This document shows, piece after piece, positions 11,736 through 13,579 of a stretch of 34,475 bases of DNA. The stretch is from positions 1 to 34,475 of the forward strand of contig JAEELJ010000033.1 in assembly GCA_016288855.1 (NCBI GenBank), given 5' to 3'. Every line of letters begins with the position of its first letter. The stretch's first letter is position 1. Origin of the DNA: Acholeplasmatales bacterium. Its GTDB lineage: Bacteria; Bacillota_I; Bacilli_A; Acholeplasmatales; Anaeroplasmataceae. The notes under the pieces were generated by a model that was given only the letters and a program-made list of their open reading frames with translations, was not told where the DNA came from and made no database searches. A program made the position numbers and the translations under genes.

Positions 11736-11740
11736 GATTA

Positions 11741-11773
11741 AAAAAAGCTAGTTTTTTCCAAACTAGCTTTTTT
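11741..11773. terminator. Bidirectional terminator between activase operon and CbrC gene
   Basis: A 14-bp perfect stem (AAAAAAGCTAGTTT and its complement) with a 5-base loop. The A and T runs at both sides give a U-tract in either direction. It closes the plus-strand operon and the minus-strand CbrC-family gene, which end 40 bp apart. Confidence 0.92.
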
Positions 11774-11775
11774 CA

Positions 11776-12372
11776 TTACATATTCATATCAACTAAGATA
11801 GTTTTGCAGTGTAAGCAACGGAATACACATAATTTAACTAATCCCTTTTGCATACCCTTCTTGATTTCTTTAATAGAATAGCCATATTCATTATCTTCAA
11901 GTAACATAGTTACCTTTTCAGTAATTCCTAGCTTATCCATTTGTTCGAAGTCAAGACATCCTAAGAATTCACAATAATCATCACAATGAGCTAACCATTT
12001 CTCATTATAGATTGCAAAATATCCAGGATTCTTAGTTATTAATTCTTCTAACTTCTTTGGATCAGATACACTATCACAAGCATCTGGATCAAAGAATGTT
12101 GCATTTAGCTTCTTTGCAGCCTCTCCTGATGCAATACATGGAGCACAAATCTTTTTAACATCTCCATTGCAATATGCTGGACCTGCATAAATAAATGTAG
12201 GTGTAGTACCACATACATCACACTTGCATTCATTCTCATTATGAACAAATACACCACTATTATATGGATCCTTATTATATGTAAATAATTTTAATGAATT
12301 AATTTGTTCAACTGTAGGAACAAATTCTACCTTTTTCTTCTCTTTTTTAGGGAAACCAAACATTTTTTTCAC
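11776..12372 (-). CDS. CbrC-family (UPF0167) zinc-finger-like protein under riboswitch control
   Basis: The 198-residue protein shows the CbrC/UPF0167 pattern: LFTYNKDPYNSGVF, then CKCDVCG, FIYAGPAYC, ICAPCIASGEAAKKLNATF, the PGYFAIYNEKWLAHCDDYCEFLG block and a final CVFRCLHCK with CxxC. The many Cys pairs suggest zinc binding. In E. coli CbrC belongs to the CreBC regulon and is linked to colicin E2 tolerance; its biochemistry is unknown. No signal peptide. The first ~15 residues are a Lys-rich extension (FPKKEKKKVE). AGGAG precedes the ATG. The mRNA starts with a c-di-GMP-I riboswitch and terminator, so expression probably rises with the second messenger. It is a single-gene unit. Confidence 0.85.
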   Translation of the reverse strand: MKKMFGFPKKEKKKVEFVPTVEQINSLKLFTYNKDPYNSGVFVHNENECKCDVCGTTPTFIYAGPAYCNGDVKKICAPCIASGEAAKKLNATFFDPDACDSVSDPKKLEELITKNPGYFAIYNEKWLAHCDDYCEFLGCLDFEQMDKLGITEKVTMLLEDNEYGYSIKEIKKGMQKGLVKLCVFRCLHCKTILVDMNM

Positions 12373-12431
12373 TCCTATATTATGATTTTTAATAGTTACG
12401 AAATAAAATTGTTAACTCATTTCATCTACCC

Positions 12432-12467
12432 GAAAAAAAAATCAGTCGTGCAATTATTATGCAACTG
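12432..12467 (-). terminator. Riboswitch expression-platform terminator
   Basis: On the minus strand CAGTTGCA (12460-12467) pairs with TGCA-CG-ACTG (12443-12452, CG bulged) and is followed by a run of nine T (12433-12441). Its 5' arm is the same stretch that forms the 3' side of the aptamer's closing helix, so the two structures exclude each other. Confidence 0.82.
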
Positions 12468-12527
12468 GCTGACTCCTTAAGTCCCTCTAGCTTTGCGTCA
12501 CAAGATTGCTCTTGCTTTGCCAACTAT
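12462..12527 (-). promoter_or_regulatory. Cyclic-di-GMP-I (GEMM-I) riboswitch aptamer
   Basis: Read on the minus strand from 12527: closing helix strand AGTTGGC, then GGCAAAGC, a stem AAGA/TCTT capped by the GNRA loop GCAA, the near-invariant block GTGACGCAAAGCTA, a short P3 around GGGACTTAAG/GAGTC, then AGCCAGTTGC, which re-pairs with the start. These are the conserved blocks of the GEMM-I class as found in Clostridia. The G before CAAA corresponds to Vc2 G20, which favours c-di-GMP over cGAMP, and the middle A of GCAAAG corresponds to A47. The closing helix competes with the terminator, which predicts that ligand turns the downstream CbrC-family gene on. Confidence 0.87.
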
Positions 12528-12546
12528 TAACCTATATTCCAAAGAA

Positions 12547-12574
12547 ATTATAACATTATTTTAGAATATTTCAA
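12547..12574 (-). promoter_or_regulatory. Promoter of the riboswitch-CbrC transcript
   Basis: On the minus strand -35 TTGAAA (12569-12574) and -10 TATAAT (12547-12552) are 16 bp apart. Transcription should start near 12540, about 13 bases before the aptamer. Confidence 0.78.
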
Positions 12575-12629: not shown

Positions 12630-13550
12630 TTATAATTTAAACTCTTTAATTAAATATGAAAATACTTTATCTATCTCTTCAATAAGCATTTTATCATTTT
12701 CTATGTTATCTTCTTCAATAAATAACTCTTTTACGGCCTTTGCTTCAACATCTGTTAAAACATCTAATGTAGAGCTTAACAATGTTTTAAAGTCCAAATT
12801 ATTTAATTCGTATTTTGCACGAGTTAAAAGATAAGTTTTTAAACCTAATGATACTGCGACATACCCAAGGTCCGAATCATGATAAAGCTTTATGATTTCA
12901 TCTTTATTAGGAACCATGCCATTTAATCCATATACAACTAGATTAGCTAAATTCTTCGAATCAATAGATGCAGAAACATCTTTAAAATTACCTTCAGCTA
13001 TAAAATTAGCAATCATTAATCTAAACGCTTCAGGTAAAACACTATCCTTTTTGTCATAAGATTTATTAGAAATAGTCTTAACTACATTCTTTATTTGCTT
13101 ACATGTAGCTTCTAATTTAGCTTCATCATTATATATAATTAATGAAATCTTTTTCTTTTCTTCATCTATGAACTGATATTCATATTGACAATCATATGTA
13201 ACAAGTAAGCCTAATAAATCTTTACTAAAACCATATTTATCATTTTTTAGATATTTATCTATATCTTCTTTTAACATGGCTTCAGTTAAATCTTTTTTAA
13301 TTTTAGGATTCTTTGATAAAAAGTCTTCTACATTTTTATTTAATTCATCAATCTTTTCATTATATTTATTTTGAGTGTTTTCTTTTATCTTATTACTCAT
13401 CTTACCAAATATATTATATTTGCCAACACTTTCATTCTTCTTATTAGAATCAACCTTTTCCTTTGCAAGCTCAATATCTAATAATAATCTAAAATAAACT
13501 ATCTCATTTAATAATTCATCCAATTTTAATACACTATCTTCTAATGTCAT
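12630..13550 (-). CDS. Hypothetical cytoplasmic protein, 306 residues
   Basis: I do not recognise a family. The protein is Lys/Asp/Glu-rich with no signal peptide or membrane segment. Residues ~10-100 look strongly helical, possibly coiled coil; the centre contains beta-like YQFIDEEKKKISLIIY; the C-terminal ~150 residues are again helical (NLANLVVYGLNGMVPNK, LLSSTLDVLTDVEAKAVKELF). I chose the ATG at 13550 because AAGGTGAT lies about 6 bases before it; a GTG 9 bp upstream is part of that ribosome site. It has its own promoter and lies between the heptose genes and the riboswitch gene. No convincing terminator follows it. Confidence 0.75.
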   Translation of the reverse strand: MTLEDSVLKLDELLNEIVYFRLLLDIELAKEKVDSNKKNESVGKYNIFGKMSNKIKENTQNKYNEKIDELNKNVEDFLSKNPKIKKDLTEAMLKEDIDKYLKNDKYGFSKDLLGLLVTYDCQYEYQFIDEEKKKISLIIYNDEAKLEATCKQIKNVVKTISNKSYDKKDSVLPEAFRLMIANFIAEGNFKDVSASIDSKNLANLVVYGLNGMVPNKDEIIKLYHDSDLGYVAVSLGLKTYLLTRAKYELNNLDFKTLLSSTLDVLTDVEAKAVKELFIEEDNIENDKMLIEEIDKVFSYLIKEFKL

Positions 13551-13579
13551 TTTTATCACCTTCTTAATACCTTATATAA

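Follow-up and report, generated by a model that had tools for sequence, protein, structure and literature searches.

A c-di-GMP-I riboswitch upstream of a UPF0167/CbrC-family gene in an Acholeplasmatales bacterium, and a possible link to toxin immunity

In the 34,475-nt stretch of Acholeplasmatales DNA analyzed here (the window), a c-di-GMP-I aptamer lies downstream of a strong promoter and is followed by a U-tailed hairpin and then by a small, zinc-finger-like UPF0167/CbrC-family gene, which the riboswitch almost certainly controls. The aptamer, the promoter, a hairpin that is mutually exclusive with the aptamer, the conservation of the locus between two species, and immunity-type neighbors of UPF0167 genes elsewhere are all computed results. 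The reading that would unite them, in which a c-di-GMP ON riboswitch acts on an orphan immunity gene made together with secreted matrix-like proteins, is offered tentatively, at a little short of an even chance. The range first noted, 12432-12574, extends from the U tract through the -35 box, and the features of the locus are as follows.

12547-12574, minus strand: promoter, with -35 TTGAAA at 12574-12569, a 16-nt spacer, and -10 TATAAT at 12552-12547 (scan, 11 of 12 positions matching; the sister species has both hexamers at the same distance)
12457-12531, minus strand: c-di-GMP-I aptamer (RF01051), full length (cmscan; the ortholog in L036/L038 scores 55.0 bits)
12500-12515, minus strand: first aptamer hairpin, 6 bp with a GCAA tetraloop (Rfam alignment; fold)
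12463-12492, minus strand: second aptamer hairpin, P3, whose 3' strand is common to the terminator (Rfam alignment; constrained fold)
12433-12477, minus strand: terminator-like hairpin at 12477-12437 with a U9 tract at 12441-12433 (fold, prefix folding; kept in G004)
12372-12376, minus strand: ribosome binding site AGGAG (read from the sequence)
11776-12363, minus strand: UPF0167/CbrC-family gene, 195 amino acids (Pfam PF03691, NCBIfam, invariant cysteines, dN/dS)
11739-11775, minus strand: terminator after the UPF0167 gene, ahead of a convergent Crp-family gene (scan)

When all Rfam families were searched with cmscan, the sole match in the window was RF01051 at 12531-12457 on the minus strand, covering model positions 1 to 87 of 87 with 53.1 bits against a gathering threshold of 35 and an E value of 8.1e-8 (for the 34,475-nt window and 4227 families). 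The covariance-model check proposed in the first-pass annotation thus came out well above threshold, and its statement that all blocks of a GEMM-I aptamer are present holds: the hallmark strings GGCAAA and GACGCAAA were found along with both hairpins. Its description of P3 as unusually short does not, as 21 nt, the P3 interval here, is also the length seen most often among the aptamers compared (13 of 41). Ligand-specificity position 20, assigned according to the Vc2 structure numbering, is G in the window aptamer and in 39 of the 41. G20A is named as a specificity change in work cited in PMC6274999, and an A at this position was taken as the mark of cGAMP variants; the G of the window aptamer fits c-di-GMP rather than cGAMP, and cGAMP specificity is accordingly disfavored. 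Two aptamers carried A instead, as in cGAMP-type variants: L003:1501-1576 (G000:C75) and L031 (G052). The riboswitch itself is an ordinary further member of the known c-di-GMP-I class. It resembles the terminator type of that class in its full-length aptamer, specificity G, overlapping intrinsic terminator, and GGDEF-rich genome, and differs from it in that the downstream gene encodes a UPF0167/CbrC protein.

From the position of the promoter, transcription should start near 12540. The terminator-like hairpin folds at -11.2 kcal/mol, compared with -14.1 kcal/mol for its counterpart in G004, and 41 of 1000 shuffles folded as well as its core, compared with 4 of 1000 for the ortholog of the second species; taken alone, this hairpin is weaker evidence than the conservation of promoter, aptamer, and hairpin together. 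A simple terminator scan of the window did not list the hairpin at 12477-12437, probably because of its interior loops.

According to both the Rfam alignment and the folds, aptamer and terminator share AGGAGUCAGCCAGUU, which forms the 3' side of P3; the claim that they share the 3' strand of the closing helix is not supported. Folded without constraint, the leader forms the terminator while its 5' portion pairs with the 5' strand of P3 (-27.8 kcal/mol); with the aptamer hairpins forced, the terminator is lost (-19.3 kcal/mol, a value that does not include ligand energy). Because P3 and the terminator compete for one strand, which is the 3' strand of the former and the 5' arm of the latter, aptamer and terminator are mutually exclusive, and since the aptamer fold abolishes the terminator, ligand binding should oppose termination, as in an ON switch. 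Without ligand, the P3 3' strand and the downstream sequence would form the terminator and RNA polymerase would stop ahead of the gene; with c-di-GMP bound, P3 would be held, the terminator blocked, and the UPF0167/CbrC gene transcribed. We infer this response to ligand, and its ON direction, from the sequence and consider it likely. The earlier proposal had the ligand acting by holding the closing helix, which in the window aptamer is weak and lies outside the Rfam structure model; its wording is therefore corrected and its predicted direction kept, with the ON logic now drawn from the exclusion between P3 and terminator and the closing helix dropped as an element.

Overlap of this kind recurred among most of the other RF01051 loci scanned in the taxonomic order: in 16 of 21 rows the hairpin started inside the 3' end of the aptamer. 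That set counts some loci twice, includes an L005 row that fits a separate terminator better, and misses the interrupted hairpin of the window. As the automated scan had misjudged the window hairpin and the L005 leader, the rows were checked by eye. At L005:1501-1760 (G000:C74:6352-6425), and also at L034 (G016), the aptamer precedes a GGDEF protein and is followed by a separate downstream terminator, a layout that reads as an OFF switch and would amount to negative feedback on c-di-GMP synthesis. OFF layouts thus seem to be present in the same genome as the window (in L005, the 5' arm of the separate terminator is able to base-pair with the 5' strand of P3), and if the window switch worked in that direction, its gene would be expressed at low c-di-GMP. 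We regard this as unlikely, because the window terminator takes its 5' arm from the 3' strand of P3, which makes the two structures mutually exclusive, and because the leader of the ortholog has the identical layout.

Promoter, aptamer, hairpin, and UPF0167 gene are all retained in a second species of the genus. Between the two species, the promoter hexamers and their spacing, the aptamer core, and the U-tailed hairpin are maintained while the surrounding leader has diverged; the UPF0167 proteins are 87% identical, and a dN/dS of 0.11 from this two-species comparison places the gene under purifying selection. These observations bear on whether the aptamer could be a decayed relic, unresponsive to ligand and simply traveling with the promoter. 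Of the six copies in its genome, the window aptamer scores lowest (53.1 bits, the best being 65.9), and the ortholog has the more stable terminator, which would suit a relic; retention of aptamer core, promoter, and hairpin within an otherwise diverged leader, ahead of a gene under purifying selection, argues against decay and makes this explanation very improbable.

Beyond these two species, the arrangement is rare. A search of the organism's own genome and 100 relatives found UPF0167 in only two, both with the switch directly upstream; among 395 genomes sampled across the class, 5 had it. No c-di-GMP-I aptamer reached the gathering threshold upstream of UPF0167 at the loci scanned in other members of Bacilli, on a plasmid from Clostridia, and in Gammaproteobacteria; the proposed search of other genomes for GEMM-I upstream of CbrC-family genes thus found the pairing in the second species and not at the more distant loci, and the pairing is known from two related metagenome-assembled genomes only. 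Within the stretch compared, nine other members of the genus carry the neighboring activase-Crp operon with neither UPF0167 nor a 309-amino-acid gene beside it, and the leader DNA of the window had no match in plasmids. The 309-amino-acid protein (12630-13559, minus strand) is encoded just upstream of the riboswitch gene and has no convincing Pfam match; its sister-species counterpart is about 56% identical in part, and it was placed there in only these two of the genomes compared. UPF0167 is broken in two other genomes, by split frames in G182 (L061-L065, G182:C1) and by several stops in G148 (L063, G148:C1).

The encoded protein matches Pfam PF03691 (UPF0167) with 129.9 bits against a gathering threshold of 25. 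It scores 95.3 bits against the NCBIfam CbrC equivalog model NF040891, far under the cut-off of 300, and is therefore a member of the family rather than CbrC proper. Translation likely begins with the ATG at 12363, which follows AGGAG, and the gene has its own terminator on the 3' side, making a single-gene transcript plausible; together with the RF01051 and PF03691 matches, this agrees with the earlier account of a c-di-GMP-I riboswitch ahead of a single CbrC/UPF0167 gene. Its suggestion of a probable Gram-positive host is likewise in keeping with a Gram-positive-type genome, whose nearest named relative is the Erysipelotrichaceae MAG RUG12899, and on the basis of taxonomy we take the organism to be Gram-positive. 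The cysteines of the window protein form CxxC pairs at C48/C51, C73/C76, and C183/C186, with a further C127, and there is no apparent signal peptide. Pfam lists UPF0167 as an uncharacterised family, the nearest NCBIfam model being that of the colicin E2 tolerance protein CbrC, and a sequence search of solved structures returned no member. An AlphaFold model (mean pLDDT of 81) gave no convincing match in the PDB (best Foldseek E value of 0.41; best VIA Z of 5.5 over 58 residues); the fold thus gives no help on function and is still compatible with a known fold.

The genome contains 21 GGDEF matches and six RF01051 copies as well as at least one EAL protein, and from its GGDEF gene content the organism is predicted to make c-di-GMP. 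Among the targets of the other five riboswitches, four products are apparently secreted or membrane anchored and one is a GGDEF protein, leaving UPF0167 as the odd one out. In the same genus and order, TasA/camelysin-type secreted genes (a label read from the sequences, most of these products having no Pfam match) also lie under c-di-GMP-I switches in which a terminator overlaps the 3' end of the aptamer; their products look secreted or membrane anchored, in contrast to the window protein. Some relatives carry three or four tandem c-di-GMP-I aptamers within a few hundred bases before one gene (G065:C2:259425-259876 in L028, G002:C58, and G085:C1).

The neighborhoods of UPF0167 genes elsewhere repeatedly contain toxin or immunity genes. 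In G139, an orphan Rhs C-terminal tip carrying an LHH nuclease domain is followed after 18 bp by UPF0167; in G150 and G382, the slot behind LHH toxins is held by a SUKH-like gene (recognized by eye). On a Subdoligranulum plasmid, UPF0167 is flanked on one side by a 2065-amino-acid protein carrying Imm68, Imm33, SUKH, and SUFU domains and on the other by an Imm32 protein, with SUKH and DUF4304 proteins next in line; this is a polyimmunity locus in the sense in which Zhang et al. (PMC3482391) describe such loci. UPF0167 adjoins SUKH_5 on a Vibrio plasmid, and on a Salmonella plasmid some 2.3 kb separate it from an S-pyocin that is followed by immunity genes, and a colicin immunity gene is nearby. 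Of the 395 sampled genomes, 5 have LHH and 5 have UPF0167, with 2 in common (hypergeometric P of 0.0013, on small numbers and with genome size uncontrolled). The distribution is patchy and includes plasmids and prophages; in viral contigs, UPF0167 was found at 10 loci with an alignment query and at none with a single-sequence query. In four IMG/VR prophage contigs (L096, L097, L098, and L099), the gene stands among or beside phage structural genes, like prophage passenger genes. The records of Campylobacter phages A11a and A18a (MG065691.1 and MG065686.1) contain a CbrC-like gene as identical to the query as are E. coli plasmid copies, possibly through assembly contamination. Immunity-type neighbors are a property of relatives and not of the window gene, which has no toxin or immunity gene beside it in a genome where searches for LHH, LXG, and SUKH found none, and several UPF0167 genes elsewhere also sit among unrelated genes.

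E. coli CbrC protects against colicin E2 (cited in PMC3599342), and this tolerance, together with the contexts of the UPF0167 relatives, points to an orphan immunity gene under c-di-GMP; that the product is of the immunity type we regard as an evenly balanced call. The main rival accepts the riboswitch as described and makes UPF0167 a metal-binding or redox factor, or an envelope-acting protein, in the service of a c-di-GMP surface program. The CxxC pairs are suggestive of metal binding or redox chemistry, some UPF0167 genes lie among metabolic genes, the other riboswitch targets in the genome look secreted or membrane anchored, and PMC3599342 links CbrC to altered outer membrane structure and not to direct neutralization. 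Against this, toxin and immunity neighbors recur across Bacilli, Clostridia, and Gammaproteobacteria, the patchy distribution with plasmids and prophages fits immunity better, and an outer membrane role would be impossible in a Gram-positive organism; we consider the rival a real possibility that falls clearly below an even chance.

The immunity reading has precedents that it resembles in part. E. coli CbrC (YieJ) shares the Pfam family, the CxxC pairs, and about 33% identity in the alignment, although the window protein is far from the NF040891 cut-off and CbrC is described in PMC3599342 as regulated by the CreBC two-component system rather than by a c-di-GMP riboswitch. The immunity proteins of polymorphic toxin systems (SUKH, SUFU, Imm68, Imm33, and Imm32; Zhang et al. 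2012, PMC3482391) are the families that UPF0167 relatives adjoin, one relative lies behind an LHH nuclease tip, and the patchy, mobile distribution is similar; unlike them, the window gene is solitary, lacks any identified toxin gene in its vicinity, and has a second-messenger switch of its own. In the portions of Zhang et al. 2012 (PMC3482391) used here, Tox-LHH is paired with SUKH only, and CbrC and YieJ are not named. Neither the pairing of c-di-GMP-I with UPF0167 nor an immunity reading of the family outside E. coli was found in the open-access literature searched, where a single paper mentions UPF0167 by name; no priority is claimed.

Under the immunity reading, the UPF0167 product would serve as an orphan immunity protein that protects the cell from toxins arriving from outside, probably HNH/Endo VII-type nucleases, and would be made alongside secreted matrix-like proteins as c-di-GMP rises and close contact with competitors becomes likely, a timing that we infer. 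The fuller proposal, that UPF0167/CbrC is an unrecognized family of HNH/Endo VII-toxin immunity proteins, an orphan copy of which a c-di-GMP ON riboswitch has wired into a surface and matrix regulon as a shield before crowding, is speculative, and we would sooner doubt than assume it. The arrangement tentatively suggests a toxin shield raised on entering the surface-attached state. The idea that c-di-GMP supplies this family with a physiological signal can be extended, as the contexts elsewhere point to toxin immunity, which the first-pass annotation did not raise. If this is true, an uncharacterised family would gain a directly testable function, the colicin E2 tolerance conferred by E. coli CbrC could be reread as cytosolic protection from an HNH DNase instead of an envelope change, and pre-emptive toxin immunity would join the processes under direct c-di-GMP riboswitch control.
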